Virus record (IMG/VR): IMGVR_UViG_3300042868_003443
Span: 1 to 29,313 of that record
Origin: a virus
Strand: one strand, 5' to 3'
Length of the DNA: 29,313 bases
The notes beneath the pieces are model-generated. The model did not search any database. It had not been told where the DNA came from and was given only the letters and a program-made list of their open reading frames with translations. The stretch's first letter is position 1. The number at the start of each line of letters is the position of its first letter. Shown in pieces: positions 2,550-21,854 of this stretch. The position numbers and the translations under genes were made by a program.

Positions 2550-5500
2550 TTAAGTAAAGAAATAAATCTCACCATTATTTGCTCTATTTTTAATTTTCAT
2601 TAAAGCATTCTTGCGATTTTTATTTAAATCTTTAGTCCAATCTTTAAGCTTTTCAAATATATTAAACTTTTTAGCCATAGATTTATAAAGTATATTAACC
2701 TGAGCACGAGTAAGTACTACTGTATCTGGTCTATTTTCAGGTAGAACATAACCAGAACGCTTATCCATTAAATTATTTTTAAATTCTTTTTCTGGTCCAG
2801 TTAATTTTTCACCTGCTTTTTCTTTCTCTAATATGTAACCTAGATTACGATCTAATACAGTAAACATACCTTTATAAGGTGACTTGTCATTAATAACAAT
2901 TGTGTTACCCTGTTTAGAAAGCTCTTGATCTATCTCAGCCATTTGTAAATTATAATCTTCTTCAAATTTACCAGTCATATCCCATGCTAAAATACGAGGA
3001 ACAATAATATTGTTAGCTACATATAGAGTCATAAGATAACTATCAGCATCTAAAATAAAGTTATCAAACACAGGAGACATGTTAAGCATTTGGAACGGAT
3101 CTTTATCACCATTAATATAACGCATAGTCTCAAGCATTACCATTGACTCTCGATACTGACCCATAACAGGACCAATACCGTTACGAGCTGCTGTTCCTGG
3201 ACCCGGAGGTTCAATATTAGCACCATCAAAACCTTTAGTACCTTTATCTTTAGCTTTAGCTTCAGGATCTAAACCTAAGAAACCTTTAATTTTTCTTTTT
3301 ATAGTAGCATACCTACTAGATATCTCTATATCTTGGTCAGTATCATATACACCAGACTTACCAATACTAATTCTTTCGTTATGAAAACCTACTGGGGCAG
3401 GCACACGACCAAACATTTGCATTAATTCTACAAGTTGTTTAGGTAAAGCGTATTGCCAGCCATCACCAGCAGCGTTTAAAGTTTTAAAATAAATTTCATT
3501 TAATTCTTCAACGAGTTTTTTGTAATCATTTTTATAATGGCTTAGCATTTCATCTTTAAAAGATGGGTATTCATTAAGGAAAGCCATAGCTTCTTCAAAG
3601 TGATACATCATTGGCTTACCATAATCGGTAGTCAGCAATACTTTCTTACCAAAAGATTTATTAAAGTCTTTGTTGCCTTCAAACTTAGCAAAAGCTGCTT
3701 TCCAAGCTCTTAATTTTTCTTGATCAGCAGCACCAAAAGCAGAATCTAAACCTTCTTTTACAGCAACCTCGGTAAAGAAAGCTCGTGGGTCTTTACCACC
3801 AGTAACATCCTGCCATTCTCTATTAGTAAAGGTATCCCAGATCAAACCAACTCGTGAAAGAATATTTTCTTTACCAACGTCCATAGCTAGGAATGTTCTT
3901 CCAGCTGAGTTCATGTCAATAGCAACAGTAGTTCTAGGTGTAAATGGTTTGCCTTGTTCTTTAGCATCCATATAAGAAGCAGCATCTAAAAAGGCTTGTA
4001 AAGTATAGCCATAATCATCTCGACCTGAGGTGTTTAACCACGTAAGCATTGCATTACGTTGTGGCTCAGTCATGTTTTGAGTGTATTCAGGCTTAATTAA
4101 GCTTGCATCACCCGGTATTTTCTTTACACCTCTATTGTATTGAGCATCAACTGCTTGAGCAACACTAAGTATTTCATTAACAATTTCTTTAGTAGAATTA
4201 GGAACTAAAGACCTTAGTTGTCTACCAATGCTAGCTGCATTCATAATAAACGCAGGAGAAACTATACTGAGCATTTCAGGGATAGTCATGTTCTCTGTTT
4301 TAAAACCAGTACCTGCATACTTACCTACATCTAAAGCTCTACCTAATATAGCTAAGAAAGATAATTCTCTTTCTGCTTGAGTAAGATTAAAATCTCTACC
4401 CCTAGCTTTGCTTCCAATCTTGTTCCAAAAGTCTGTTGCTTTTTCTTTGCTAATTCCTTTTGTATGATAAGTAGTCTCTCCAAAAAGCATAGGTTTAGCA
4501 CTAAACACCATCAAAGCACGAGTTAATTTATTGCGTTGTTCAGCAAAGTCAACTGCATCTTGGTATAAACGGTGTGTTGAATAGTCGTCTCGATACTTAG
4601 TAAAGTTAGGGCTACCATCAGCCATAAAACCAGCTTGATGGAAGAATTCGCTTGCAAGTAAATTAAGTTTACTCTTCAAAGAATTCTTTTTATCTGGGTA
4701 ATCATCTGGGATTCTAGCATCTTCAAGATCTTCATTACTAATTTTAAAGTAAGGAAGCATATCTACATTGCCTTCAACAGGTACACCATTGTTATTAATT
4801 TGACTTAGCAACATCTTAAACATATTAAGAGCGTGAAAGCCTTTAATAGGTGAAGACAATTTACCAATACTACCCGCAATACGTTTACCTTCGTCAATCT
4901 GAGTTAAAGGTTGGTATCCGGGTTTCTTTATATCTCCTGGACGAATGTTACGACTAGCACCTACTAATTCACCTGTATCACTTACAGGAACCTTCTGAGA
5001 CCTAGCAGACAATCTACCTGTAATGGCGTGTTCTAACTCTTTAGTGTCTCGATAATAATCTAGACCTTTATTAGTAGGAACAACAGCCATTACACCTTTA
5101 ACATTAATTTCAGTTAAATAACCTGCATCAATTTGAGCTTGAGTATAAGCAGCACCAGATTCTGTATTAGAAATTCTTGCTTGGGGAACAGCAGCTTGAT
5201 TTAAAGGTCTGCCTTGATCATCAACTGACTTGCGGGTTTTGCTAAACACGTTAGCTGTACGTCCAGCCGCTGTCTCATAAGACTCCCTAGTAAGAAGACC
5301 ACCTACGTATTTAAGGTTAAGTGGACCTTCTTCACCATCACTGCTTAACAAAGCATTGATACCTGTTAGCGTATCATTAGACTCTTCATCAAAGAAATCT
5401 GCTTCTGAAATAGTAGAATCATCTTGAGAACGAGGTTTCATTCTTTTAGAATTACCAACAGCAAGCGGCATAAGAGTAGTCATTGCTAACGTACCCATGT

Positions 5501-6110
5501 TAGCAGCTGTACGTGTTGTAACACCATAAGCATCAGCAAGTCTTGTTAGCCCGTTTTGAACTTCACCTGAAGGAGTTTTAATTTCCATGTTAGCTAAAGA
5601 CAAACCAATATCTTTAGAAGCACGGAGAGGAGTTGCAGCTACAGTAGGCTTCATAACACCATCACCAATAGCGGCATTAAGATCCTCTACTGTTTTCATG
5701 CGAGTTAATTGTGCAAGAGAAGTAACTCTTTGTTGTTGTGATTCTATTTCTTGCTGACGAAGTTGCATCATTTGTTCGTAAGGTATTTCATTACCTTGAC
5801 GATCCATAATAGACCTACCTGCTCCAGCGCCTTCATCTGGGTACAAATCTTTATAAGTATCTATACCAAATTCATCTAGGTAATCATCACTAAAAAGATT
5901 ACGTTCTTTACCATAATAATTAGCATCTTCAGGAGATGTTGTATCCTCATCAGCACTCATACCTGTATATGCTAATGGAGGAGGGGCTTGTTGTTCCTCT
6001 GATACAGCTATTGCAGGTACTTCTGTTTCTGAAATACGTTCTCTTAAAAAGTCTGAGCCAACACCTTGTGGTACACTTGATGGGCGGGGTACGTTAACAA
6101 ATTTAGACAT
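2550..6110 (-). CDS. Putative virion RNA polymerase, N4 vRNAP/T7-like single-subunit type
   Basis: An 1186-residue protein, last gene of the late cluster. It carries what look like the three catalytic motifs of single-subunit RNA polymerases. Motif A is AIDMNSAGRTF (D732). Motif B is NKSFGKKVLLTTDYGKP, with K818, K822 and Y830 at -12, -8 and 0, the exact spacing of N4 vRNAP K666/K670/Y678 and T7 R627/K631/Y639. Motif C is PVFDNF (D1016) in place of T7 HDSF. D732 to Y830 is 98 residues (T7 102); Y830 to D1016 is 186 (T7 173). Length is close to the 1106-residue catalytic core of N4 vRNAP. The N-terminal 120 residues are acidic and Gln-rich. A candidate T/DxxGR motif (ASIGR, R630) is weak. SD GGAG lies upstream. 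In N4 the packaged polymerase is ejected to transcribe early genes; that role here is inferred from motif and gene position. Confidence 0.65.
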   Translation of the reverse strand: MSKFVNVPRPSSVPQGVGSDFLRERISETEVPAIAVSEEQQAPPPLAYTGMSADEDTTSPEDANYYGKERNLFSDDYLDEFGIDTYKDLYPDEGAGAGRSIMDRQGNEIPYEQMMQLRQQEIESQQQRVTSLAQLTRMKTVEDLNAAIGDGVMKPTVAATPLRASKDIGLSLANMEIKTPSGEVQNGLTRLADAYGVTTRTAANMGTLAMTTLMPLAVGNSKRMKPRSQDDSTISEADFFDEESNDTLTGINALLSSDGEEGPLNLKYVGGLLTRESYETAAGRTANVFSKTRKSVDDQGRPLNQAAVPQARISNTESGAAYTQAQIDAGYLTEINVKGVMAVVPTNKGLDYYRDTKELEHAITGRLSARSQKVPVSDTGELVGASRNIRPGDIKKPGYQPLTQIDEGKRIAGSIGKLSSPIKGFHALNMFKMLLSQINNNGVPVEGNVDMLPYFKISNEDLEDARIPDDYPDKKNSLKSKLNLLASEFFHQAGFMADGSPNFTKYRDDYSTHRLYQDAVDFAEQRNKLTRALMVFSAKPMLFGETTYHTKGISKEKATDFWNKIGSKARGRDFNLTQAERELSFLAILGRALDVGKYAGTGFKTENMTIPEMLSIVSPAFIMNAASIGRQLRSLVPNSTKEIVNEILSVAQAVDAQYNRGVKKIPGDASLIKPEYTQNMTEPQRNAMLTWLNTSGRDDYGYTLQAFLDAASYMDAKEQGKPFTPRTTVAIDMNSAGRTFLAMDVGKENILSRVGLIWDTFTNREWQDVTGGKDPRAFFTEVAVKEGLDSAFGAADQEKLRAWKAAFAKFEGNKDFNKSFGKKVLLTTDYGKPMMYHFEEAMAFLNEYPSFKDEMLSHYKNDYKKLVEELNEIYFKTLNAAGDGWQYALPKQLVELMQMFGRVPAPVGFHNERISIGKSGVYDTDQDIEISSRYATIKRKIKGFLGLDPEAKAKDKGTKGFDGANIEPPGPGTAARNGIGPVMGQYRESMVMLETMRYINGDKDPFQMLNMSPVFDNFILDADSYLMTLYVANNIIVPRILAWDMTGKFEEDYNLQMAEIDQELSKQGNTIVINDKSPYKGMFTVLDRNLGYILEKEKAGEKLTGPEKEFKNNLMDKRSGYVLPENRPDTVVLTRAQVNILYKSMAKKFNIFEKLKDWTKDLNKNRKNALMKIKNRANNGEIYFFT

Positions 6111-6113
6111 TAA

Positions 6114-9100
6114 TTAGTCTCCAAGTTCTTTCTGTAAATATTTCGCAAAGGCGGGAGATGTTCCTAATATAGGAAGCAGCCTTGCACCTCTCTCGATTTG
6201 CTTACCTTCAGGTGCAGATAAAGCATTATCGATTTTGTTAATAAAGGAAAGTTGAGGGGATTGTTCAGAAAGATTCTGCCAAACCTGTGCCGCAACACCT
6301 TTATATTTACTGTTATCAGGAATCAAAGGATCCATTGTATCCCATATGCGCTGACCAGTTCCTAGTAAACCTGTTTGGGATACTAGACGTTGAAATTCTT
6401 TTTCTTCTTTTAACCATTCTGGTGGTGATTCACCATACTTAATTAGGTCTTTAATATACAATGCAAGCATAGACAAAGCAATCATCATAGCAATTGTTGC
6501 AGCTGCATTCTTTTGATCTTCAGAACCTGCTTTGCCTAGATCACCAATAAGTCTTGGTAAAAGGTTTGCTGTAAATGTTGATGTATAACCTTGGAATTGA
6601 GTAAACAAACTATAGTAAGGATCACTATAAAACTTAGGTCTATTAAGTTGGGATGGCATTACAACAGCTTCGTTTACAAAATTGTAAACAGCTAACTGCA
6701 TATTGTTTTCATACTTACTTTGATTTAAAGTACTGTCCTCATTAATAGATGTCATAAAGTTTATATCAATACCTAACCTATTTAGGTGGTCTCTTGCATC
6801 GTTTACTTGTTGCTCTGTATAAGATAAATCATTATTCTGAACAACACCTAACCAATTATTAATTGCATCTGCTGCAATACCTAACCTAGCATTTCTAGTA
6901 ATAGTAGTAACAGAAGTAAGACCAGTTAACTTAAAGAAACCCTCTGTCCATCGTTGATAATAGTTAGACATAATATCAATACGATTAGCTGTGTTTCCTT
7001 CTTTTAAATAACCTGCTCTAGACAAAGAAGATCTATGAGCAACTTCTTTAATTTGAACTCTATCTGTCATAGCATTACCAATATCACGTAGGTATGCTGA
7101 CATTTCTTTTCCAGCAGAAGTAAGCAATATCTTAAATGCTTTAATTGACTGTGGCTTATTAAGATTCCTAAACACCTGTGCAAACTCTACTGTAGAACTT
7201 ACTGCGGCTAAAGGTAACGCTGTAATTGTAGACAAGAAATTAACAGTACCTAACGCACCTTTAATATAAGGATTAGTAATAGGAAAGTAATTACCTGAAC
7301 GCATACTAAGAAAGTCTTTAAGTTCTTTAGCTATAAATGCAGCAGTAGCGTTATCAATAGTACCTTTGTTTAAAGAAGCTTGTATTAGAGCAGCTAGTTT
7401 AGCTCCATCTTTTCCAATAATATTTTTATTAACGTTAATAGCTGCAGCTTTACTAGACAAAGAATAAGCATTATTTAATATATCGTTAGACAAATACTTA
7501 GCAAACCTAGCTCTGTTCTCTGGTTCATTCAAGGCTTTAATAAGAACGTCTTTATCTTTTAATCCAGCAGTTACCTCATTAAATGGATTGATATCCTCAT
7601 TAAATACATCATCAATAGAATTGTTATCTCTGTTATTCATTAAAGAATTAACAATTTCTCCTGCTTCTTTTGAAGATATTTTTAATCCTACTTCTAAATC
7701 TTTAAGAAACTCTTTATATTTTTTAGTAATAACAGTCTTATCAATAGGTGATTGCTCTAAGAAAGATTTAAAAGTTAAAGCAGAACCCGTTGCATTGTTA
7801 TAATCATTAATTAAGTTAGTGATCTTACCAGCATACTCAGATAACTGATCTTTGTATTGATTATTAACTCCAAAATCAATACCTAAACTAGTAGCTAATT
7901 GATTAGCTGTTTGATCAGGATAAAGATTCATATTAGAAGAAATACGTTCTAAACCATCAATAACTTTTTTATCATTAAATAACTTATTGATTTGAGTTTC
8001 GTTTAAGCCTTTGAACTTACCTAGCATTTCTTCTTTAGTACCAAACCTACTAAAGATTTTAGCACTTAAAAGTGCTTGATGCTCATCAATAGATCTACCA
8101 TTAACAGGTCTTCCATAACCTAAAAACGTAGCAAGTGAACCCATGTACTCATCAGCATGTTGCATGCCTTTCATAATGGTTCCGCTATACTGACCAAACA
8201 AAGAAACAATACCTTTGTCAGCCCACCAAGAACCAGTCTTAGCAAACACACCTTCTGTTTGTCGTTTAGAAGTTTCTAACAAAGCAAGCTCTTCAATAGT
8301 TTTATCATTTTCAGGCTTACCAAATGCTTCTAATTGTATCTCAGCCGCAGATGGAATGTTACCACGCTCTTTATTCATTTTGTTTCTGAATTCAGAATCA
8401 CTGGTAATTTCATTAGGTGATATTCTATTAGTAAGAGTAGATACAGCAGTACTACCTCCACTCATTACTCCACCAAGTAAACCACCACCAACAGCTGCAT
8501 TAAGCATTCTGTTCTTTAATTTATTTTGTTCTAAGCTATCTGTAGGTAAAGACAATGTAACTTCTTCACCTAAGTAACCAGCTAATTCTTGTAATGATTC
8601 AGTAACTGATTCTGTTAATCCACCAATAGCAACAGACTTACCAATAGCTTTTGGTCCTAAGTTTGATTTAATAGTAGCAACTCTTAAAGCTTCACCTACT
8701 TCTTTAGTAGCTTCTTTTAAACTATTCTTAATTAATTGTTCTGCAGCTTCATCACCAATGCCTTTTAGCATTAGCTCTTTTTTAATCATCTGCTGAGTAG
8801 CTTGTTTGGTTATATCTAATCCTGGTTTAAATATAAAACCAATACCTAACCTATCTAAAGCTGTTTGAGTTAATCCGGAAGCAATAGCTGCAGTAGCATT
8901 TTTATTTTCTTCTTTTTGATTGTTCCAAGTATTACCAATATATATTCCAGCAGGAATTGATAAAGATAAACCATAAGTTAATGGAGCAGCTAAGGTAGCA
9001 ACAATAGTTGTTAGCATTTGAGGTGCTGATACAGCCGCTTGACCAATAGAAAAGTCTACAACTTTACGTAATGTATCTAGCTTCCAATCACCGTTGTCAT

Positions 9101-9914
9101 CAAATGCTTCTGGCTGTTTTAAGTATGGTAATTTTTCTAGGTTATCTTGTACACTTCTTACATTAGCGCTACCAATATCCCTTAGCCAATCAGAGCCAGT
9201 ACGATCCCCAATCATTTCAAGAGTTCCAAACAAACCTTTTTTAATTTCTTTGCCACCAATACTTAAACCAGTGCTGAGAGTAGCGTTTGTAACACCACGT
9301 TCATCTTCATCAGGTCTAATTAAAGCAGGTCCAACAAAGTAATCAAAGTCTGCTTGATTAAATTGTTTAGCTGTTGTAGTCCTTAACTTAGAGTAAACTT
9401 TTTCATTAGGATACATCTCACCAATAAGATTATAATACATCTCATCTGCAACAGTAACTTTACCTTCTAGCTCTCTTTGTCTACGATCTAATTTACCATA
9501 AGCTTCACTAGTTCTTTGTGACGGAGTGCTTTCTTTGTAAAGATCAGTATAACCTTTATACAACAACTCATTAGTTAATGCTCTACCACCTGAGTATAGA
9601 TCTCCTAATTCACGTCCATAAATATCTTTAGTACCGCTTAATTCAGGCGTAGTAAAACCACCGCCTTTAATAGTTTCTGCAACTAATTCTGACTGAGTAT
9701 CAGCACCTAATTGAGCACCTTTAATTTTACCGGGTAAAAATTTAGCACTCTCTCTTGTATTAATACCTTGCAATCTAAGTGTTGAATCAGGAAGGGCAAC
9801 AGTATCAGCATCCTTTAATCGAATGCTGTCTGTTCCCGTATCCATAACAGAGGGTTCAGGGATAGACTTTTCGTCTATTCCCATACCTATAAGTATTTCT
9901 TTAAGTCTATCCAT
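6114..9914 (-). CDS. Large ejection-type virion protein with N-terminal SNase-like nuclease domain
   Basis: A 1266-residue protein. Residues about 30-125 match the staphylococcal (thermo)nuclease fold: DADTVAL (D37 = SNase D21), LRLQGINTRES (R47 = R35, N52 = D40, E55 = E43) and IYGRELGDLYSGGRALTNEL (R101 = R87) with the following GYTDLY. The two catalytic arginines and the glutamate are kept, but the calcium ligand D40 is Asn. The rest has several hydrophobic, potentially membrane-inserting stretches (about residues 290-330, 470-495 and near 1120-1145) between helical regions, as expected of proteins ejected through the cell envelope. The start has GAGGT four bases upstream; four bases separate it from the next gene. 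The function of the C-terminal 1100 residues is not recognised. Confidence 0.7.
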   Translation of the reverse strand: MDRLKEILIGMGIDEKSIPEPSVMDTGTDSIRLKDADTVALPDSTLRLQGINTRESAKFLPGKIKGAQLGADTQSELVAETIKGGGFTTPELSGTKDIYGRELGDLYSGGRALTNELLYKGYTDLYKESTPSQRTSEAYGKLDRRQRELEGKVTVADEMYYNLIGEMYPNEKVYSKLRTTTAKQFNQADFDYFVGPALIRPDEDERGVTNATLSTGLSIGGKEIKKGLFGTLEMIGDRTGSDWLRDIGSANVRSVQDNLEKLPYLKQPEAFDDNGDWKLDTLRKVVDFSIGQAAVSAPQMLTTIVATLAAPLTYGLSLSIPAGIYIGNTWNNQKEENKNATAAIASGLTQTALDRLGIGFIFKPGLDITKQATQQMIKKELMLKGIGDEAAEQLIKNSLKEATKEVGEALRVATIKSNLGPKAIGKSVAIGGLTESVTESLQELAGYLGEEVTLSLPTDSLEQNKLKNRMLNAAVGGGLLGGVMSGGSTAVSTLTNRISPNEITSDSEFRNKMNKERGNIPSAAEIQLEAFGKPENDKTIEELALLETSKRQTEGVFAKTGSWWADKGIVSLFGQYSGTIMKGMQHADEYMGSLATFLGYGRPVNGRSIDEHQALLSAKIFSRFGTKEEMLGKFKGLNETQINKLFNDKKVIDGLERISSNMNLYPDQTANQLATSLGIDFGVNNQYKDQLSEYAGKITNLINDYNNATGSALTFKSFLEQSPIDKTVITKKYKEFLKDLEVGLKISSKEAGEIVNSLMNNRDNNSIDDVFNEDINPFNEVTAGLKDKDVLIKALNEPENRARFAKYLSNDILNNAYSLSSKAAAINVNKNIIGKDGAKLAALIQASLNKGTIDNATAAFIAKELKDFLSMRSGNYFPITNPYIKGALGTVNFLSTITALPLAAVSSTVEFAQVFRNLNKPQSIKAFKILLTSAGKEMSAYLRDIGNAMTDRVQIKEVAHRSSLSRAGYLKEGNTANRIDIMSNYYQRWTEGFFKLTGLTSVTTITRNARLGIAADAINNWLGVVQNNDLSYTEQQVNDARDHLNRLGIDINFMTSINEDSTLNQSKYENNMQLAVYNFVNEAVVMPSQLNRPKFYSDPYYSLFTQFQGYTSTFTANLLPRLIGDLGKAGSEDQKNAAATIAMMIALSMLALYIKDLIKYGESPPEWLKEEKEFQRLVSQTGLLGTGQRIWDTMDPLIPDNSKYKGVAAQVWQNLSEQSPQLSFINKIDNALSAPEGKQIERGARLLPILGTSPAFAKYLQKELGD

Positions 9915-9923
9915 GTTACCTCT

Positions 9924-12900
9924 TTATTTTTTAAATGTATCCAAAGCAAATAATGCAAATGCAGTATTTCTATCTGAGTTCTTATATTTGTTTTGTATAC
10001 CGTTACTATTAGCAGTCCACACTTCTGCTAGCCTTGCTATCTCAGCATCAGGACTTGTGTTAGCTTTGTTCTTAGAAATAAAAGTATTAGCTGAATCTCT
10101 AAGCGCAAGGATGTCGTCTGCTGACATAATCTTACCTGACTTTTTATCTAAAGTAACTAGCTTATCTGACAACTTACCACGTTCTCTAAACTCTCCAGCA
10201 GCTAGGTATGGTGTAATATCTTTAGAAACTTTATAAGTACCTGACTCAATATCTTTTACTAATTGTTCTGATGCAATAGTAGTAATCTTTTCAATTTCAT
10301 TTTGAACTGCACGATCATCTAAGTCAATCTTTTTGTTTCTAAAATAACTTTCAACTTGGCTAGCAGCTGATCCAGCAGTAACAATACCTTTTCTTTCTGG
10401 ATTAGCTTTACCTTTAACATTAGATGCACCAAAGTAACTCTCAACAATTGGTTCAAATATATTTTTAGAAAGCTTCTCTGAAAATTCTTGAGCACGTTTA
10501 GTCTTAGCAAGGTCACCATATTTACTGGAGTCCCATTTATCTAAGAAAGCACCGCTAGACATTAACCTATCAAAAGGAATACTCTTATCACCTACACGAG
10601 CCATTTGAACGGTCTCACCTTTACGAGGTCCAACTTGTTGAACTGTTTCGTATACCCATACAGGGTCTCCGGGTTTAAACACTTGTCCATTAATCTCAGT
10701 AGGTTTATTAACAGTCATAAGTTCTGATTTACCATTACGAATGTATGAAGTTTTAATTTCAGGTGCTTCACCTTTCTGACCGCCTTTAATCCAATTACGA
10801 ACAGCAACAGAATCACGACCCTCTCTGATCATCTCAGTTTCAAGTTGTTTGTCTTCTGCACGTATTAAATCTTGTTTTCTAAATTCACGTTCTTTATCAA
10901 AACGTTTATCAAGTAATTCTTCTTGCTGAGTAAAGCGTTTCTCTTGTTGTTCAGCTGCAAACTGTTCTGCTTGACGTTTATCAGCTGATTGAAGTGTATT
11001 TAATCCAGCAAATTTAAGGGATCCACCTACAGAACCACCTGTTAACATACCACCAGCAGCTAAAATACCAAACCTAACAAGCTCTTTATCACTAAACAAA
11101 CCTTTAGGACCAAAGATACCTTCTAAAGCTTTAGCAAGAAAGCCTTTCTTTTCTTCAGGTGTTCCTTTAATTTGAGATACACGAGCAAGGGCTTCATTAA
11201 CTTTACTAGATTCTTCTTGTGCTAATTTACCAAGCATATTAAACTTGTCAGCATTTTGTTGTTGAGAAAAACCAGTGCCTTCTACTGCAGGAACTTCTAC
11301 TTGTTTACCTTCTCCTAAAGACATATTATAAGCTTGATCATTAGCCATAGCTTGCTCATTCTTAACCATATCTGCTGGTCTAGGTACTTCATTAGTTGCT
11401 ACAGGTAATTTTTCAACTTCAATTTTTGTAGGAGTTACTGAATTACTAGCAACAATATCAGGAGGTGCTACATTAAAAATAGGTGCTCTAACATCTGCCA
11501 TTGTAGGAATAGCTTGATTAGCCCTTGCTAAAACATTTTTAGCTGCTTGAATAACTCTAGGGTTAGTACTTGTAGCTAAATCTTGTTTAGCAATAAGAAC
11601 TTCTCTACCTGTAGGTTCAACAAGAACTGGAGGAACAGGGTAACGAGAAAGCAAACTTGCGTTTTCATTAGAAGATGCTTGAGCTTCTGGGCTAGGTAAA
11701 GTACCTGCTTGAGCTGATGGAATAATATCTGTTGCTACTTGTGCTAAAGACTTACCTGCTTTAGTTGCTTTTTGAGCAATAAAGTTTTTAAAATCACCAG
11801 CTGTTTTACCAAAATAAGTATTTTGTTTTAATTCATTCTTAGTAAAATGTTTATCTAACGGCTCATCATCTTTAGCGGCAATAGCCGATACTGCTCTAGG
11901 ACCAAAACCAGCTGCATAAAGATTTTCTACTGTTAAAGGTAAACCCTTTTTCTTAAGCTGATTTGCATAATCATCATACTGGGTATCAGATAATTCTCTT
12001 TGATACTCAGGTTTAAAATAAGCTTCAGAATTATGGGCAACACCCTGAAGCTTTGGATTAATCTTTTGATACAAAGGTAATGTACCCGCAGTAGTTCCAG
12101 TAAGGCTAGAAGCTGTTTGACCTGCTTGTTTTTGTTTTGCTCTAGGATCATTAGATGCTTCAGCAAAAGCTCTCATTTTAAAGAAATCTTCTTTAGATAC
12201 TTCAGTAGGTGTATTAACTGCTAATGGGGCTACAACAGGTTGTGTTGCAGGAATTTGTTGACCAGCAATAAAGTTAAGAGCACGATCTAAATAAGAAACA
12301 TTATCTGTCCCATCTTCATAACCTGCTGCAGACTGTACTTGTTGAGGTACTACACCGTATGTACCATTAGAATAGTTAGCCTGAGCAGAAGAACCACGAC
12401 TAAAGTCAGGTACACTCATTGTACCATCCATAAAGGAAGATCCGGGTACGTCTGGATGACGATATGCTAACGATGGAACACCACTAGTACCATCCATATG
12501 GTATTTAGCTTGTCCAGGAGCATCTGAGTACCGCACATCTACAGCACCGTCACGCATGTCGTTAGCCTTACGACCTTCTTGTACCATACGCTTAATATCT
12601 TTTTTATTTTTAGGATCTTGTGCGGCAGGAGCTGGAATAACCGCTTCTCCGGGAGTAAGCATAGCAGGAACTGTATCAGTGCCTCGTGCTTGAAACATAG
12701 GCTTAGGTAAACTACGTTGACCTTGTTTGAACATACCAGTGCCAGCTAAAGGATTCTGAGTTGGAATACCTAGCTTTTGTTTGTTCATCTTAGGAGGAGG
12801 AATACCCATGTCCTTAAGTTTAGCATTGTTAACTTGTTCTTTATGACCTAAACCTTGATTAGCTTTTGCAGCTGCTTCCTGAAGTTTAATCTCATGTAAT

Positions 12901-13004
12901 TGTTGTTTACGACTTTCGTCAAGTCCCATCTTAGCCGCTTCACGGGCTTCTTTATTTTGAAACTTGAGGTACTCTCTCTGTTGTTTACCTGATAAGGGTG
13001 CCAT
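9924..13004 (-). CDS. Large internal/ejection virion protein with transglycosylase-like region
   Basis: A 1026-residue virion protein. The N-terminal 60 residues are a charged helix. Residues 105-145 hold ARGTDTVPAMLTPGEAVIP followed by a basic helix ending MVQEGR, a block typical of phage tape-measure and internal proteins. Four more GTxxV-type repeats follow to about residue 240. Residues 272-400 resemble the phage lytic-transglycosylase arrangement: an AFAEASND start with candidate catalytic E282, TASSLTGTTAGT, then ENLYAAGFGPRAVSAIAAKD and a late NTYFG; they are diverged, so activity is uncertain. A Gly-rich hydrophobic patch (GILAAGGMLTGGSVGG) and a long Gln/Glu/Arg coiled coil follow. 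AAGGAAAT lies upstream of the start. It probably opens the cell wall during DNA ejection, like T7 gp16 (inference). Confidence 0.65.
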   Translation of the reverse strand: MAPLSGKQQREYLKFQNKEAREAAKMGLDESRKQQLHEIKLQEAAAKANQGLGHKEQVNNAKLKDMGIPPPKMNKQKLGIPTQNPLAGTGMFKQGQRSLPKPMFQARGTDTVPAMLTPGEAVIPAPAAQDPKNKKDIKRMVQEGRKANDMRDGAVDVRYSDAPGQAKYHMDGTSGVPSLAYRHPDVPGSSFMDGTMSVPDFSRGSSAQANYSNGTYGVVPQQVQSAAGYEDGTDNVSYLDRALNFIAGQQIPATQPVVAPLAVNTPTEVSKEDFFKMRAFAEASNDPRAKQKQAGQTASSLTGTTAGTLPLYQKINPKLQGVAHNSEAYFKPEYQRELSDTQYDDYANQLKKKGLPLTVENLYAAGFGPRAVSAIAAKDDEPLDKHFTKNELKQNTYFGKTAGDFKNFIAQKATKAGKSLAQVATDIIPSAQAGTLPSPEAQASSNENASLLSRYPVPPVLVEPTGREVLIAKQDLATSTNPRVIQAAKNVLARANQAIPTMADVRAPIFNVAPPDIVASNSVTPTKIEVEKLPVATNEVPRPADMVKNEQAMANDQAYNMSLGEGKQVEVPAVEGTGFSQQQNADKFNMLGKLAQEESSKVNEALARVSQIKGTPEEKKGFLAKALEGIFGPKGLFSDKELVRFGILAAGGMLTGGSVGGSLKFAGLNTLQSADKRQAEQFAAEQQEKRFTQQEELLDKRFDKEREFRKQDLIRAEDKQLETEMIREGRDSVAVRNWIKGGQKGEAPEIKTSYIRNGKSELMTVNKPTEINGQVFKPGDPVWVYETVQQVGPRKGETVQMARVGDKSIPFDRLMSSGAFLDKWDSSKYGDLAKTKRAQEFSEKLSKNIFEPIVESYFGASNVKGKANPERKGIVTAGSAASQVESYFRNKKIDLDDRAVQNEIEKITTIASEQLVKDIESGTYKVSKDITPYLAAGEFRERGKLSDKLVTLDKKSGKIMSADDILALRDSANTFISKNKANTSPDAEIARLAEVWTANSNGIQNKYKNSDRNTAFALFALDTFKK

Positions 13005-13391: not shown

Positions 13392-13822
13392 TATTTGCCT
13401 CCAGTAGTAGCTTTAGGGTTGTATACAGTAAATATATTTTCTGGTGTTATTGCTTTTTGAGTAGCTAAGCTAGTCATATAGGTTGATTTAGGAATAGCAA
13501 TAAAGTTTTCAGCAGATGTTGCTCGTGTAGCTACTTTATCGTTAGCTAAAGGACCTGTGTATTTAACAATAACATCATCATTAGGACCACCAGCGGCTCC
13601 TGCTGAATCACCATCTCCCGGACCAACAGCTCCTGCACCAATAATACCAGCAGTAGTACCATCATCAGTTGCGTCAGATGCGGCATCAGAAGCACTAATA
13701 GCACCTTCACCTATAATACCTGCTGTTGTACCGTCATCAGAAGCTTCACCACCATCTCCACCACCACCTCCGGGTCCACCACCATATTTCTTTTGAGCTT
13801 TAACTTTGTAATAAGAAGGCAT
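13391..13822 (-). CDS. Gly-rich virion-type protein with internal duplication, 143 aa
   Basis: The N-terminus (MPSYYKVKAQKKYGGG, then a Gly run) is followed by two copies of DDGTTAGIIG.GA at about residues 29-41 and 52-64, joined by an Ala/Ser/Asp linker. The C-terminal 60 residues are more ordinary (YTGPLANDKVATRATSAENF). Low complexity and acidity suggest a flexible structural protein. Both junctions are TAATG overlaps, so it is tightly coupled to the neighbouring ejection-type genes. GGGGGT precedes the start. Function is unknown; a minor capsid/tail-core component is the best guess from context. Confidence 0.6.
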   Translation of the reverse strand: MPSYYKVKAQKKYGGGPGGGGGDGGEASDDGTTAGIIGEGAISASDAASDATDDGTTAGIIGAGAVGPGDGDSAGAAGGPNDDVIVKYTGPLANDKVATRATSAENFIAIPKSTYMTSLATQKAITPENIFTVYNPKATTGGK

Positions 13823-14517
13823 TACTTACCCCCAGACACAGCAGTTTGTCTTGCTGGATTACCATAGATAGTTGATGCATAACGTTGTAGACCTTGCCAT
13901 GCTGAATCAAGACCTTGTTGTTCAACATTACGTTGTTGATTACCAAGGTTAGCAATACTAGATACACCACCTGTAGCAATACCAGACGCTGTTTGAGCAC
14001 CTGACTGTAATGCAGACTCAGCTGCAAGGCGGTTCTTAAACATATTAGCTTCGTAATCAGCATCTACCTTGGCAAGCTGACCTGTAGTTTCAGCGTTCTG
14101 AGCACCCTGCATAACAGCTTGTCGTGCTGATCCTAAGGTACCAGCTGCACCAAAGCCTGTGTTAAGTCCAGCTACTTTCTTTTGTGCATCGTTAACAATA
14201 GCGGCTTTAGTAGCGGCTAATGTTTCAGCACTAGGAGATGTTGCCATAGTAGACAATCTTGTGTTTTGATCATTAAGTGACTTAAGAGCTGTTGCTGTAG
14301 TACCACCCAGCATTTGAGCACCACTGCCAAAAGCCTGTTGTTGAAGTGTTGAAGCACCAGCAACGTTACCTAAGTTACCTGCTTGATAATTAGCTTCAGC
14401 GGCAGTACCTACATTCTCAATGTATGGTTGCGCCCAAGCGGGAATTGTTGGGACTGTGGTAGTTCCACCACCGCCTCCATAGTTCTTCTTAATAGAACCA
14501 TTAATACTATACTTCAT
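13822..14517 (-). CDS. Internal/ejection-type virion protein, 231 aa
   Basis: Ala/Gly/Gln-rich, largely helical protein. It begins MKYSINGSIKKNYGGGGG, then a Pro-rich turn (VPTIPAWAQPYIENV), a long helical body with many Ala/Gln/Asn, and ends GLQRYASTIYGNPARQTAVS. This Gly-rich start, helical body and YGNP-type end is a pattern I associate with internal core proteins of short-tailed phages, comparable in position and size to T7 gp14. T7 gp14 forms part of the ejected channel in the outer membrane; the equivalence is inferred. AGGATTT lies upstream of the start, which overlaps the previous gene by 11 bases. Confidence 0.6.
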   Translation of the reverse strand: MKYSINGSIKKNYGGGGGTTTVPTIPAWAQPYIENVGTAAEANYQAGNLGNVAGASTLQQQAFGSGAQMLGGTTATALKSLNDQNTRLSTMATSPSAETLAATKAAIVNDAQKKVAGLNTGFGAAGTLGSARQAVMQGAQNAETTGQLAKVDADYEANMFKNRLAAESALQSGAQTASGIATGGVSSIANLGNQQRNVEQQGLDSAWQGLQRYASTIYGNPARQTAVSGGK

Positions 14518-14947: not shown

Positions 14948-17900
14948 TTACATTGCGGCAATTACAAAAGCTAATAGCTCTTCATATCGCAGACCAAGTG
15001 TTGTTATACCTTCTTCAGATGTATCAGAACAGAACAGTCCATAGTGATTAGCGTTAAGACCTTCTGCAGTAAAAGCATCTTGTACTTCTTGAGCAATAGC
15101 TCCTACGTGAATACGTGCTTGACTACCTTTGCTTTGTACTGCATCTTTAAATCTAAACTTTTTAATTAAAGATTTAATACGTCTTGCAACAGCTAACTCA
15201 GCTAAAGATAGTTCTTCAATATCTTCCTTTTCATTCCTGTCTGATGTGTTAATAGTACCTGTAGTAGCATAGATAACTGTCCATCTAAAAGAAGAAAACC
15301 CGCAAGAATAAGAATTATCAGTTGTTGGTGATAAAGTAGGAGGAGAACTTGCTCCATTAAAGAAAACACCATTACTTGAACTATTAACTAACGCAGCTGT
15401 TGTAGCATTAGATTTTAAACCTACAATAGTACCAACTAAAACAGTTTGATAATTACTAGTAGCATCTCCAACCTTAGCACTTGTTCCACTTGAAGTAATG
15501 TATCCACTAGGATTAGAACTATTGTATGGTGTATAACCTAAAGCACCTGTAACATTACCGCTAGTAAGTGATAATGTACCACCAAGAGTTAAATTACCAG
15601 TGCTAGTTACTGTTCCGGATAATGTTAAACCAGATACACTTCCTGTACCACCAACTGAAGTAACACCAGTACCCGCTGCCCATGTACCATCTTGTTTAAG
15701 ATAACCTGTACCACCTGTAGTAGGTGCAGGAATAGATCCAACACCCCAGTTAAATACTCCCCAAGGTGCAAGGTTAGTACCAAGATTCATTCTTGTACCA
15801 GCAGTTGAGGAATTACCTGAAAAACTTGGTCCTGCAGTTGTTCCTAAAGTTAAAGCACTAATCAGAATACCAGCAGTATAAGTAGTAACTCCATTATAAC
15901 CAGCCATAAGAACAATATTAGAACCGTTAGAGGCAATACCCGGAGCATTAACCGTAGTAGGTGCTAAACTATAAGACATCCTTACATGAGTTGTACCTAA
16001 CTGATTTAAAAAGAAATCACCAGTATCTAATGTAAGTAATGATGCACCACTTAAAGTATTTCCATTAGCCGCATAATAAGCAATCTGATTAGCGGTTCCA
16101 CTGTTAATAGCAGTAGCAGAAGGTGTGTAAGTTAATACACCAGTAGATGAATTATAACTAATTGACCCTGCACCTGAAGCACTAGCATTAGTAGTACTAA
16201 ATGGGTGTACGTGGTTTCCTCTAGAAAACTTAGCAGATGATCCAGCAGATGCTGTTCCTCCTGCAATAGGTACTGATGTAAAACCATAATCATTACCAGA
16301 CAAGTCTAACAATGAAGGTGTTTGTAATCCACTCTCTAAACGGTTGTTAGAGTTAGAAGAATAGGCATCTGTAGCACTCTCAAAAGAACATCCAACTAAA
16401 TCTACTTTACAACGACTTCCTGTGTTACCAATAGTCATACGACTTGGGTCAGGAACATAGCTATTAAGACCTTTAAATCCACAACCTGAAATAGCAATAG
16501 TAAAACCATTACCAGCAGTTGCATCTAAAAGAATACTGTTAGTAGTATATGGTGAACCGAATCTTACAAAAGAACATCCTGTAATAGTGTTGCTTACACC
16601 AGCTTTAGATTGAGTACTTGTTACATATACGTCTGCAATACCTGCATTACCTTCAAAGTAAACACCAGTAAAGGTAAATCCATCAGCACCTTCAATAGCA
16701 GTTGAGCCTGAAGGTTCAGCAACACGAACTCCCCAGTTACTCGATGAGCCTGATGTTGTGCCATTAGCTTCGATAGCTCCACCAAGAATATTAAATGTAC
16801 TACATCCAAGGATATAAATACCATACTCAGAGTTAGCACCTACTTCACAATTAACAAGTGTAATAGCGTTAGGTGAACTGGCGTTAGTTGTTCCAATTCT
16901 TTCAAACAACATACCACGAGTGTTAAATCTAAATTGACAAGATACAAGAGTAGAAGTTAAAAAGTTAGAGCCATACATACCATATAACCAACCAGTAAAC
17001 TGGCATGATTCAATATGTAAAAAAGCACCACCAGTAACTGAGAGACCTTGTCCTACAGTACCAGAGTTATTAACAAAGGCAAGTCCTTTAATGTTAGTAT
17101 ATACATTAAGGTTAGTACCCGCAATAGTAAGACCATTAGCATTAGTTGTTTGCAACAATATAGATGCACCAATACCTTCACCTAAGAAGTGAACTCGTTG
17201 TCCAGGATCTAAAGCAGGAGCAGTGTATGTAAGAGAACTTGTTAACCTATAAAGACCATTAGGAAAATATACTGTTCCACCTGTAGAAACAGCAGAGTTA
17301 ATAGCAGATTGAATAGCAGCAGTATCATCTGTTGCACCATCACCTACAGCACCATAATTTTTAACATTATATTTGCGATCAGTAACAGCCCATGTACCAT
17401 CCCCTCTTAAATAGGTTGATGATGTAGGTACTCCAGTAGCAAGGGATGACGTAGGTATTTGACCACTATAAGTAATACCCATTGTTCCATTAGATGTCAA
17501 TGGTGAATTGCTTACTGCAAATCCTGTGGGTACAGTTATACCAACACTGCTTAATCCACCAGTGCCTCCTGCAACACCCCATGTACCATCACCACGTAAC
17601 ACTTTAGTTACATCGTTAGGTGGAGGCTGAACACGTACTGTTCCTAATGTTCCTGAGTATACAGGATTAGTACCATTAGTAAATGATCCAGTATTAGAAC
17701 CAATAATAACCGTGTTTGTTCCTGATACAGGACCAACAACTGGTTTTCTAAATGTTATAGAAGCAGCAGTTACAGAACCTGATACAGATACTGTCCACTG
17801 GTTATTAATATTAGTAGATATAGCCGCTGACAGTTCTTGAATAGTAGAAAGAAATTCAGGCTCATACTCAAGAACAAATATATAGTTTGTACTTTCAAGA

Positions 17901-20302
17901 GTAATGTTATAAGTTAAAGCGCCAGAAGATTGAAAGTTAAATGTTGGAACTACAATAGTTGCATATGTACCGGGAGTAACAATAGTACTTGTATTAGTAG
18001 GGAAGTCTAATCCCCTAAAATAACCAATACCTGATTTAGTTCCTGCAGTACCTGCTGTTCCTGTTACACCATCAAAAGCATAACCATCACCAGTACCGCC
18101 AGCAAAGAAAGCCGCACCAGTGCTTGAACCAGTAAGAGCCATAAAAGCAGGATTAGTGTGACCTGAACCTACAACGTCAATCCTAAAACCAGCATCGGGA
18201 TTACTACCAGAGTTAATAGCACCATAAAATAATCTACCATTAGCATTAGATACAGCAGAAAAACCATTACCAGCTCCACTAGTATTAGCAGTAACACCTG
18301 AGCCAATAGCTCCTGAGTATTCTAACCATATAGGATTTGTAATACTTGAAGTACCACTAATACCAATAACAGCACTGTTAACGTCAGCACCACCAGTACC
18401 ACCTAATGTAAGAAACTTATTGTTACTTGAATCATAGGCTGTAATACGATTATCTCGTACTGTGGTTGATGGGGGTACAAGACTATTAATCTCAATACGT
18501 TGTCCTGTTGTACCTGTTTTAAATCCTGAAGTCTGAATTTCACCTGCTGTTACTGTACCAATATTAGCAGTAATAGATGACAAAGAAGAAACAGAAAGTT
18601 TACTTGCAGTAATTGTGTTCTCTACAATAAGAGAACCAGTAATATATGTTGTGAATAATGTCCATGAAACTACATAGCGGTATACAACAGCATTATTAAA
18701 GTTGTTATAGCTTACTGTTACAATATCGCCTGACACAGGGTCACGACCAATAGCCGCATTCACTTCAACATTTGTAGGAGCACTACTATCATTAGCTACA
18801 CGAGTAATAACAAAGGTAGCTGAACCCGCAGAGCCAACAGCACCATTAGCACCATTGTAAGCAATACCTCTAATAGGGTATGCTACATTAGTCCAGTCAA
18901 GAGTAGATGTGGTTACAGTAGCCTCTTCATTAAGCGGTACAGTAATACTCCACAGATAATATCCTGGAGTTGTTTCACTAGGGGCTGATGTAAACCATCC
19001 AGTAGGTGGTGTGTATGCACCTGTAGACCATGTGTATGTAGAAGTAGTTGTGGGTCTTGCTGGAGGAGTTGAGTTAGCTGTCCATCGGTAGATAGCTGGA
19101 AATGCAGACATAATACCGTTAGCACCTGCTACGCCCGGAACACCATTGTACACAACAGGCATACTAATGACTTTAACTACGGGACTTGTAAGGTTAGAAC
19201 CATTAACAGTTAATGTTACGTCTACTTTAGTTGCAGCTGACAAAGGTGTAATAAGTACAGAGCTTGTTGTAGCTGTAGCTGGTGTAGCACCTGATATAAC
19301 CCAACTGTATGTTGGGCTTGTAATGTTACTTGTTATAGCCGCAAGAGTAGCATTAGGTGGGGTAAATGCACCACTAGATGCTTGTACAAAAGAAGTATAA
19401 CCTGAGATATCTACAGTAGGACCACTAGAGCCTGTTGCTCCGGGATCCGCAAAGACTAACTGAACAGTAGCAACACTAGCTTGTGTAACTGCTCCTGTAC
19501 TATTTTTAAACCTAATAGGGACAGTAATAGAAGCAGGACTACTAGCCATAGCAGATGGTGCTGACCAAGCAGCGTATTCACCTGCATCTGTAGGAGCACT
19601 AAAAGTAATATTAGTATAACCAATATCACCATTACCGCTTGTTGAACTGTTACCAATACGCCAAGTATTATTAACAAAGCTTACATCAGCGTCTGTTTGA
19701 GCATCTACAAAAGGAACTAACACATTAGAGTTAACTGCATATAACTTAGGTGTTATACCTGTAAACACAGGGGCTAATGGGTTACCTGTACGGGGTACCT
19801 GCATAACAGCAGGGGTAAAGAAAGATGAGAATGAATCAACAACAGTAGTGTTTGTTCCTGATGTAACAATATCAGCATCAATAGCTGTTCCGGGGTCTAC
19901 TAGCCAACCTGAAGCAGGTGCTGCAGTAGATACCGCAAAGTTAACTTTACGACCACCTACTGTTTGATAGAACAAGAACTTAGTTACACCAAATCCACCA
20001 GTGACTTCATACCAAGTATATGCTGCTGGATTGCTTGATTCACTTGAATCATCAGAGTTAAACACACCATAATAAGACCTGTTAGTAGGAACATTAGAAA
20101 TGTTAGTACCAACAGTATCATCAGCATATTTAATAGCAAGGTATCTATAAAGATACCCTACAATCTTACCAAATTTATCACTGATAATACCTGTAGCAGG
20201 GTCTACGGTTAGTCCGTCAGTAGCTCCAGATGTACCTTCAAGTACAAGCTGTGCTAGGAAAGCATCAAGCTCTCTGTCACCTGTAATAGGTGGATTAAAC
20301 AT
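14948..20302 (-). CDS. Tailspike / host-recognition protein: beta-helix plus self-cleaving S74 chaperone
   Basis: A 1784-residue receptor-binding or depolymerase protein. In order: an N-terminal region GDRELDAFLAQLVLEG; a domain with YLYRYLAIKYADD and NPAAYTWYEVTGGFG seen in many aquatic phage tail proteins; Ig-like Ser/Thr-rich parts; a phage J-like stretch (ENTITASKLSVSSLSSITAN); a pectate-lyase-3-type beta-helix from about residue 976 (KNYGAVGDGATDDTAAIQSA, then YFPNGLYRL) to about 1280; tail repeats including ALGYTPYNSSNPSGYI; and an S74 intramolecular chaperone starting SDRNEKEDIEE at S1687, with HVGAIAQEVQDAF. Cleavage before S1687 would release 98 residues after trimerisation. The start is the ATG at 20302 with GGAGGT directly upstream; an in-frame reading from 20332 is less likely. 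Sugar-cleaving activity is possible, not shown. Confidence 0.85.
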   Translation of the reverse strand: MFNPPITGDRELDAFLAQLVLEGTSGATDGLTVDPATGIISDKFGKIVGYLYRYLAIKYADDTVGTNISNVPTNRSYYGVFNSDDSSESSNPAAYTWYEVTGGFGVTKFLFYQTVGGRKVNFAVSTAAPASGWLVDPGTAIDADIVTSGTNTTVVDSFSSFFTPAVMQVPRTGNPLAPVFTGITPKLYAVNSNVLVPFVDAQTDADVSFVNNTWRIGNSSTSGNGDIGYTNITFSAPTDAGEYAAWSAPSAMASSPASITVPIRFKNSTGAVTQASVATVQLVFADPGATGSSGPTVDISGYTSFVQASSGAFTPPNATLAAITSNITSPTYSWVISGATPATATTSSVLITPLSAATKVDVTLTVNGSNLTSPVVKVISMPVVYNGVPGVAGANGIMSAFPAIYRWTANSTPPARPTTTSTYTWSTGAYTPPTGWFTSAPSETTPGYYLWSITVPLNEEATVTTSTLDWTNVAYPIRGIAYNGANGAVGSAGSATFVITRVANDSSAPTNVEVNAAIGRDPVSGDIVTVSYNNFNNAVVYRYVVSWTLFTTYITGSLIVENTITASKLSVSSLSSITANIGTVTAGEIQTSGFKTGTTGQRIEINSLVPPSTTVRDNRITAYDSSNNKFLTLGGTGGADVNSAVIGISGTSSITNPIWLEYSGAIGSGVTANTSGAGNGFSAVSNANGRLFYGAINSGSNPDAGFRIDVVGSGHTNPAFMALTGSSTGAAFFAGGTGDGYAFDGVTGTAGTAGTKSGIGYFRGLDFPTNTSTIVTPGTYATIVVPTFNFQSSGALTYNITLESTNYIFVLEYEPEFLSTIQELSAAISTNINNQWTVSVSGSVTAASITFRKPVVGPVSGTNTVIIGSNTGSFTNGTNPVYSGTLGTVRVQPPPNDVTKVLRGDGTWGVAGGTGGLSSVGITVPTGFAVSNSPLTSNGTMGITYSGQIPTSSLATGVPTSSTYLRGDGTWAVTDRKYNVKNYGAVGDGATDDTAAIQSAINSAVSTGGTVYFPNGLYRLTSSLTYTAPALDPGQRVHFLGEGIGASILLQTTNANGLTIAGTNLNVYTNIKGLAFVNNSGTVGQGLSVTGGAFLHIESCQFTGWLYGMYGSNFLTSTLVSCQFRFNTRGMLFERIGTTNASSPNAITLVNCEVGANSEYGIYILGCSTFNILGGAIEANGTTSGSSSNWGVRVAEPSGSTAIEGADGFTFTGVYFEGNAGIADVYVTSTQSKAGVSNTITGCSFVRFGSPYTTNSILLDATAGNGFTIAISGCGFKGLNSYVPDPSRMTIGNTGSRCKVDLVGCSFESATDAYSSNSNNRLESGLQTPSLLDLSGNDYGFTSVPIAGGTASAGSSAKFSRGNHVHPFSTTNASASGAGSISYNSSTGVLTYTPSATAINSGTANQIAYYAANGNTLSGASLLTLDTGDFFLNQLGTTHVRMSYSLAPTTVNAPGIASNGSNIVLMAGYNGVTTYTAGILISALTLGTTAGPSFSGNSSTAGTRMNLGTNLAPWGVFNWGVGSIPAPTTGGTGYLKQDGTWAAGTGVTSVGGTGSVSGLTLSGTVTSTGNLTLGGTLSLTSGNVTGALGYTPYNSSNPSGYITSSGTSAKVGDATSNYQTVLVGTIVGLKSNATTAALVNSSSNGVFFNGASSPPTLSPTTDNSYSCGFSSFRWTVIYATTGTINTSDRNEKEDIEELSLAELAVARRIKSLIKKFRFKDAVQSKGSQARIHVGAIAQEVQDAFTAEGLNANHYGLFCSDTSEEGITTLGLRYEELLAFVIAAM

Positions 20303-20303
20303 G

Positions 20304-21854
20304 TTACCTCCGATCAGCAGGTTTAGCGTCAAGAGCCATCATAGCCAGCCGCCAATAATTCGTTGCAGTAATTCTGTAGTTAAGTACACGACCATTAACC
20401 CGTGGGTCAACCTTATAGCCCTGTGACTTTTCATTGTTAGGAAGAAATGTAAATGTATCTTTTAATGCCGCATCATCTACAGATAAGTCTACATTCTTAA
20501 CATAATTGTTTTGTCCTACAACTCTGATAGTAATATTAGAGTCATTAGGTACTGTATCAAACACAGGATACAAAGAAGTAATTAAAGAACTTCCTGTAAC
20601 ATCACCTGAGTTAAGTTTCTTTTTCTCTACATACGAAGTAAAAGAAGCTAATGCAGTACCATTCCACAATTGGAAGGCATCAGACTCTACTAATGTTGTA
20701 GTTGTTGTAGTTGTAAAGTATACTACTTCTTTGCCATATTGAAATGCGTTAGATACATTAGATGGACCAAAGAAAGAATAAGTCATGTTGGTAGCTTGAC
20801 GTTTAGACCATGTATTATTTTTATAATTATAGATCAATACTTCATTGCATACTGTAGAACTTCCTTTAGGATAATTAATCCAGACTTCTTTGTAATAAGC
20901 ATGTCTTGTTACGTGTACTTTATCAATAGCATTCTTATTTAAATTATTAAAGAAATACTTTTTAATTCTGAAGTCAGCAAGAGATTCAATACTACCTGAA
21001 CCATTGTGAATGTAAATGTCATTACGGTCAACAACTAAGTGTTTACCATCAAACTCACATACACAATCTACAGATAAGATTCCATAAGACCGACTATAAG
21101 GAACAACTCGTGTTCCATTAATTCCAATAGACAATATACTGATACTGTCTGAGGAATATATAAACATATTACCTCTCAACTCAGCCATATCTAATATGGG
21201 AGATGTAGAGTTAATTTCAAATTCATCTGCGGTATCTGTTGTAGTTCCTGGTTGCCATACAGTAGGTATAGCTCCAGTAGCCGCTTGTACAGACACTCGT
21301 ACAGTACTTGGTGCGTATGTTGTAATACCTGTACTACTGTCTGCAATAGTAAGGTTAGCCGCAACAAGCGAGTAGTTAAGTGATCTAACTACTTTAGCAG
21401 TAACAGTTAAGTTACCAAGATAATTCCAGTTAGGAAGTGGGAGAAATGCTGATCCAGCATTAATGTCTCCATACAAACAATATATAGGTGTTGTTCTACC
21501 ATTGTTAAGTACAATAGCAAAACCACCATTAAACAAAGTTCCTTGCCAATCACTGTTTGTGTAATTGCCACCAGTACCAGTAAACATAGTTGACTGATTA
21601 CCAGCAGCATCTACACGAACAATGTTACCATCTTTAGCAAAGATGTTATATCCTTGATCAGGACGCCTCCAATGAATGCCATAGTCAGGGGCAATAGAAA
21701 CTGTCCTATAAATAGATTCACCTGTAATTGTTGATACTGCTTCGTCATCAAAGCGTACATTGAGTACGTCTGTAAATGTATTCTGAGGTACAATCATAGG
21801 TGGTAAGTCTGTATTGAGACCGCCTTTACCTAGCTGTTCGATTGGGATTGCCAT
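20304..21854 (-). CDS. Tail nozzle / DNA-stabilisation-like structural protein
   Basis: A 516-residue structural protein. Its start MAIPIEQLGKGGLNTDLPP and the following NVRFDDEAVSTITGE resemble tail proteins of marine podoviruses. Repeated short beta-strand blocks (WQGTLFNGGFAIVLNNGR, LDMAELRGNMFIYSSDS, NEVLIYNYKNNTWSKR) suggest a beta-propeller like T7 gp12 or P22 gp10, which close the tail end and hold in the DNA. It sits just before the tailspike gene, which fits a tail-tip location. A run of seven Thr codons occurs near 20694-20714. The stop (TAA) lies one base before the next ATG, inside its Shine-Dalgarno region. AAAGGAT precedes the start. Assignment is by pattern and context, not search. 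Confidence 0.6.
   Translation of the reverse strand: MAIPIEQLGKGGLNTDLPPMIVPQNTFTDVLNVRFDDEAVSTITGESIYRTVSIAPDYGIHWRRPDQGYNIFAKDGNIVRVDAAGNQSTMFTGTGGNYTNSDWQGTLFNGGFAIVLNNGRTTPIYCLYGDINAGSAFLPLPNWNYLGNLTVTAKVVRSLNYSLVAANLTIADSSTGITTYAPSTVRVSVQAATGAIPTVWQPGTTTDTADEFEINSTSPILDMAELRGNMFIYSSDSISILSIGINGTRVVPYSRSYGILSVDCVCEFDGKHLVVDRNDIYIHNGSGSIESLADFRIKKYFFNNLNKNAIDKVHVTRHAYYKEVWINYPKGSSTVCNEVLIYNYKNNTWSKRQATNMTYSFFGPSNVSNAFQYGKEVVYFTTTTTTTLVESDAFQLWNGTALASFTSYVEKKKLNSGDVTGSSLITSLYPVFDTVPNDSNITIRVVGQNNYVKNVDLSVDDAALKDTFTFLPNNEKSQGYKVDPRVNGRVLNYRITATNYWRLAMMALDAKPADRR

Follow-up and report, generated by a model that had tools for sequence, protein, structure and literature searches.

In the window, which is the whole IMG/VR virus record of 29,313 bases, a 1266-aa protein bears a genuine staphylococcal-nuclease (SNase) domain at residues ∼28–127. 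Judged from its sequence, the protein is probably a gp16-like podoviral ejection protein with the SNase fused at its N-terminus; the domain most likely works as a nuclease and would reach the cell together with the genome.

The gene belongs to a structural cluster on the minus strand of the window. In the order of transcription, this cluster encodes a fibre protein, lysis genes with a phage lysozyme, a 516-aa protein, a 1794-aa protein, a set of small proteins, and three giants of 1026, 1266, and 1186 aa. The open reading frame of the 1266-aa protein was confirmed as real, and its start codon is ATG. The features discussed below are the following, with their basis in brackets; CRP-7 is a Roseobacter phage.

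20304..21854, minus strand: 516-aa virion structural protein (PHROG 3287), homologue of CRP-7 gp43 (PHROGs, CRP-7 comparison)
13822..14517, minus strand: 231-aa protein with a weak match to PHROG 4287, DNA ejection protein, and homologue of CRP-7 gp37 (PHROGs, CRP-7 comparison)
9924..13004, minus strand: 1026-aa ejection-type protein, upstream of the SNase-bearing gene (Pfam/PHROGs, relatives)
6114..9914, minus strand: 1266-aa putative ejection (internal virion) protein with N-terminal SNase domain (ORF calling, PHROG match, relatives)
9534..9833, minus strand: SNase domain (OB-fold), residues 28–127 of the 1266-aa protein (Pfam, profile vs PDB, AlphaFold)
6114..9302, minus strand: body of the 1266-aa protein, residues 205–1266, homologous over ∼833–1190 to the PaP3 orf19/LUZ24-type virion structural protein (PHROGs, tblastn)
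2550..6110, minus strand: 1186-aa downstream protein, positional counterpart of CRP-7 gp33 (ORF calling, gene order)

Some other genes of the window deserve a mention. The 1794-aa protein (14948–20332) has a pectate-lyase-like domain and an S74 endosialidase chaperone, and it looks like a self-trimming tailspike. The fibre protein (24485–29311) is open-ended and exceeds 1600 aa, with a long, repetitive N-terminal stretch rich in Ala, Ser, Thr, and Asn, and a C-terminus that appears chaperone-like by eye. A tRNA-Met gene lies on the plus strand at 904–978.

A staphylococcal-nuclease domain and its predicted fold

The initial annotation had placed an SNase-like domain at residues 30–125 (9827–9540); its coordinates are right, and the motifs are as it described them. 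As for the Pfam family SNase (PF00565), which it had named as the family to align to, the outcome depends on what is scanned: the full protein scores 20.0 bits (E 0.001), just below the curated cut-off of 21 bits, while the isolated domain passes it with 25.0 bits (E 2.8e-5), and a value of 24.5 bits was obtained in the genome search. The Pfam scan of the 1266-aa protein revealed no domain besides SNase, an N-terminal transglycosylase being absent; among PHROGs there is a weak match to PHROG 452, endonuclease (E 0.0019).

A sensitive profile search had been set beforehand as a test able to refute the domain, and it recovered SNase. A phage-only profile of 27 rows reached the PDB with a best E of 1.3e-7, and the best 60 of its 185 matches are all staphylococcal nuclease or thermonuclease; an earlier profile of 11 rows had found SNase at E 0.028. 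The OB-fold, the other feature on which the domain had been staked, was likewise obtained: the AlphaFold model from the 27-row alignment is an SNase OB-fold with the C-terminal helices present (pLDDT 88.7, pTM 0.82). VIA-align matches this model to SNase with Z 12.9 and rmsd 2.9 over 113 residues at 26% identity, with strands and helices in the SNase order, and Foldseek retrieves SNase and Tudor-SN at about 3e-5. From 11 sequences, AlphaFold gave a model of low confidence (pLDDT 47), for which the VIA matches were still mostly SNase (Z about 8).

Could the resemblance be a matter of chance motifs? The first full-length Pfam scan, at 20 bits, is what speaks for it. The invariant catalytic residues counted below, the PDB profile matches, the AlphaFold model, and its VIA match all stand against it, so that this explanation is ruled out for practical purposes. 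Pfam, even at E ≤ 1, sees SNase in only 16 of 27 such domains, and it overlooks the CRP-7 copy as well; this may explain why these proteins are poorly annotated.

Structural comparison with BFVD gave a like protein from an uncultured Caudovirales phage (A0A6J5NQ80, 1342 aa, E 3.9e-5), annotated "Staphylococcal nuclease (SNase-like), OB-fold". The same database has a 1368-aa protein, presumably CRP-7 gp34 judging from the identical length. Two further large viral proteins, A0A516LXN0_1 and A7KUR9_2, show a weak SNase-like structural match, and they may be other cases of SNase on virion proteins.

Catalytic residues and the position of D40

Relatives were collected from IMG/VR scans, with the addition of CRP-7; searches of genome contigs confirmed no relative. 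The alignment comprised 35 loci, from which two cut at the 5' end (L056, L059) were removed to leave 33 intact N-termini, and the removal of eight rows at ≥95% identity left 25 for the conservation count. Two more loci, L062 and L067, on the same contigs as L022 and L021, respectively, likewise lack the 5' end and did not enter the alignment.

With SNase numbering taken from the PDB profile alignment, the motifs of the 1266-aa protein are D35-A-D37-T38 (SNase D19..T22), R47 (R35), N52 (D40), E55 (E43), and Y99-G-R101 (R87). The residues of interest, with their state among the 25 relatives, are these:

9804..9806, minus strand: D37, equivalent to the metal ligand D21; invariant, 25/25
9774..9776, minus strand: R47, equivalent to R35; invariant, 25/25
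9759..9761, minus strand: N52, at the position of D40; N 16, D 7, S 2 of 25
9750..9752, minus strand: E55, equivalent to E43; invariant, 25/25
9612..9614, minus strand: R101, equivalent to R87; invariant, 25/25

In SNase, D21, R35, D40, and R87 have roles in metal binding or catalysis, D21 being a metal ligand and D40 a calcium ligand; E43 is named as active site in a PDB title. Only seven of the 100 columns over residues 28–127 are invariant in all 25 relatives: D35, D37, T38, R47, E55, R101, and G110, the first six of which correspond in the PDB alignment to D19, D21, T22, R35, E43, and R87. The sequences are otherwise divergent, with a mean pairwise identity of 38% and a minimum of 18% in the domain, and four of the five textbook positions (D21, R35, D40, E43, R87) would land by chance within seven columns out of 100 with a probability of about 4e-5. 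The domain is under purifying selection: its dN/dS is 0.05–0.07 between the window and the close relatives L001, L002, and L003, the comparison with L011 being set aside because synonymous change is saturated.

The retention of the R35, E43, and R87 equivalents, together with Asn in place of Asp at position 40, had been proposed from the window alone, and the PDB alignment bears it out. A different fate befell the accompanying suggestion that the D40N change might signal abolished activity. Position 40 is N or S in 18 of the 25 relatives, the window having Asn, and the other catalytic positions do not vary. In a tree of the body (residues 205–1266), Asp occurs in the CRP-7 group and in two other deep rows, L058 and L060, while Asn prevails in the 18-row clade that includes the window, the exceptions being Asp in L055 and Ser in L042. 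A minimum of three changes between Asp and other residues is required on this quick tree, which has several long branches, and the method gives them no direction. Stand-alone SNases were compared too: in 11 of them, from ten phages and one plasmid, position 40 is Asp in nine and Asn in two, and both of the latter keep the Arg/Glu/Arg set; E43 is missing from one of the 11 (L077). From these sequences, Asp at ligand position 40 is typical of SNase without being a defining trait. Because Asn is usual in the clade, the remaining catalytic positions are fixed, and Asn-type stand-alone SNases exist, D40N alone is poor evidence of lost activity, and a dead enzyme was not accepted on this ground. It is possible that the change tunes the use of the metal.

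The ejection-type body and its neighbours

What kind of protein carries this domain? Residues 833–1180 match PHROG 6958, virion structural protein, with E 1.5e-29, and tblastn of the body reaches proteins of PaP3, LUZ24, KPP25, and KIT05 annotated as virion or particle. This homology, together with the gene order, supports the assignment to the ejection type and backs the "giant ejection-type protein" of the initial annotation; on the same two grounds, the protein would be packaged in the head and ejected with the DNA. A look for membrane-spanning segments showed two hydrophobic stretches of 19 residues, at residues 887 and 1136. The body profile has no PDB match at E ≤ 1, so that the likeness to T7 gp16 is a positional one: both are giant ejection-type proteins with an enzyme domain at the N-terminus (PMC8954989, consulted in excerpt), but in T7 that enzyme is a transglycosylase.

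One of the closest described counterparts is gp34 of CRP-7 (MK613349, 1368 aa, "hypothetical protein"), which has the same N-terminal domain, a homologous body, and the same gene order, although it is ∼23% identical overall and keeps Asp at position 40. Residues 470–535 of gp34 (L015, 11941–16047) match PHROG 1452, Gp5.5-like host H-NS inhibition, weakly (E 0.0089) and probably by chance. The better-known relatives are different. PaP3 orf19 and the LUZ24, KPP25, and KIT05 proteins (PHROG 6958) share the C-terminal body, over residues ∼833–1190 of the window protein, but profile A5 found the SNase domain in none of the four tested: KPP25, KIT05, PaP3, and CP-p-PA-21011. The same profile, which held close relatives of CRP-7 and not CRP-7 itself, detects the CRP-7 domain at 3.4e-41. 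Patterns drawn from the body only led to 33 loci, four of them cut at the 5' end, and SNase is present in all 29 others, ten of which lie on contigs already in the relative set. Thus, the SNase is fixed in the sampled lineage, and the better-known relatives that were searched for it lack it. One locus, L051 (6001–9791), has a frame that stops at 799 aa though its tblastn match spans the whole protein; its N-terminus resembles that of L037, and the short frame is either a sequencing error or a broken gene.

The order of the ejection genes is common to the window and CRP-7. BLASTP gave no convincing homology between the flanking 1186- and 1026-aa giants and CRP-7 gp33 and gp35, for which reason they are paired by position only; NCBIfam, searched with four proteins, returned zero matches.

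The protein that precedes the SNase-bearing one has its own enzyme in many of the relatives. A peptidoglycan hydrolase is found on it in 14 of 20 distinct copies (11 by Pfam above the cut-off and 3 by PHROGs), and at least five Pfam kinds are represented: SLT (L011, L040, L045, L050), GH108 (L001, L002, L037), Pesticin-type lysozyme (CRP-7, L016), Phage_lysozyme2 (L057), and Phage_lysozyme (L058), with L044, L048, and L054 being those added by PHROGs. No hydrolase was found in the window, L029, and L060 by Pfam and PHROGs, or in L038, L039, and L042 by Pfam only. The case of L001 is instructive: its 1266-aa protein is 97% identical to that of the window, yet its neighbour is different and bears GH108. 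The wall hydrolase is swapped often, then, while the SNase is constant. The idea that the SNase is a general replacement for the wall hydrolase was also considered, and the count of 14 in 20 rules it out.

Virion proteins with an enzyme at the N-terminus are known from other systems. In T7, the N-terminal transglycosylase of gp16 sits in the periplasm, and in K1-type phages the transglycosylase has moved to the gp15 homologue (both from the excerpted PMC8954989), a shift in keeping with an N-terminal position left free on proteins of the gp16 kind. The portion available of the literature on nucleases in ejection or virion proteins yielded one precedent, the BtI1 prophage homologue of the 0305phi8-36 baseplate hub gp147, in which a staphylococcal-nuclease domain takes the N-terminal place that a transglycosylase has in gp147; the consulted part of that source calls the purpose of the domain not obvious (PMC2147016). 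Like the window protein, the BtI1 hub is a virion protein with SNase at its N-terminus, but it is a myovirus baseplate hub from a Bacillus prophage, and the two are likened by description, not by sequence. The excerpts seen of PMC6918029, which describes CRP-7, and of PMC12629253 do not mention a nuclease for this phage. The novelty, therefore, is not an N-terminal enzyme on an ejection protein, which is already known, but that this enzyme is a nuclease and is conserved across a lineage.

A probable nuclease at the start of infection

The invariance of the catalytic residues points to an enzyme able to cut nucleic acid, which these aquatic viruses would carry with them as they infect. The 1266-aa protein would be packed in the head and exit with the DNA, which would put the nuclease into the envelope of the host. 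If T7 gp16 is a guide, the domain would face the periplasm first, where calcium could permit SNase activity. Nucleic acid might then be cut at the entry site, either from the periplasm or after translocation, and the phage would most likely gain by destroying, early on, DNA or RNA of the host or of competitors. Opening the wall would fall to a different enzyme, the interchangeable hydrolase of the preceding protein. Two points weigh against a working nuclease: N52 takes the place of a calcium ligand, and such an enzyme, packaged alongside the DNA of its own phage, would have to be held inactive. No inhibitor was identified, and candidate reasons for silence in the capsid are the absence of free metal or a weakened metal binding at position 40.

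Other uses of the domain can be envisaged. It might be a module that binds nucleic acid and holds or guides the DNA end without cutting it, the Asn at position 40 having removed effective metal binding. SNase-type folds that lack catalysis exist in Tudor-SN, which is among the Foldseek matches, and N or S stands in place of D40 in 18 of the 25 relatives; yet D21, R35, E43, and R87 are invariant in 25/25, Asp is kept in CRP-7-type and some other members, and two of the 11 stand-alone SNases combine Asn with the Arg/Glu/Arg set, so that a module of this sort is unlikely. Perhaps the nuclease cuts, but late and in the producing cell, by breaking down host DNA or trimming during assembly, and its location in the virion is incidental. 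Such a role would suit a gene in a structural, late-type cluster whose product would be abundant late; it becomes rather improbable when one considers that the fusion to the ejection-type body is kept in all 29 relatives that the body patterns retrieved with the 5' end complete, and that other phages have SNase as stand-alone genes.

A further role would be in genome release, for example by cutting an end of the DNA, packaged or on its way in, or by cutting periplasmic DNA that obstructs the channel. The N-terminal position does match the periplasmic part of T7 gp16 (PMC8954989, in excerpt), but some relatives, PaP3 and KIT05 for instance, do without an SNase domain, and we regard this role as slightly more improbable still than late action.

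Returning to a working nuclease delivered with the genome, a more specific picture can be offered tentatively, as one that may well not hold in all its parts: a two-enzyme entry device, in which the hydrolase would be exchanged to fit the host, while an indispensable nuclease would act at the start of infection on nucleic acid from the host or a competitor or with a part in defence; the change from D to N or S would help to keep it silent in the capsid. CRP-7 is a cultivated phage whose laboratory host is FZCC0042, so that the presence of the protein in the virion, its activity, and its timing can be tested directly.

With this analysis, a large protein of this lineage that stays "hypothetical" under standard annotation acquires a likely function. 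Where ejection proteins have N-terminal enzymes, the known ones are wall hydrolases; a conserved nuclease in that slot would imply a cutting enzyme that enters the cell before any phage gene is expressed, and phages that carry it would have to protect their own packed DNA from it.
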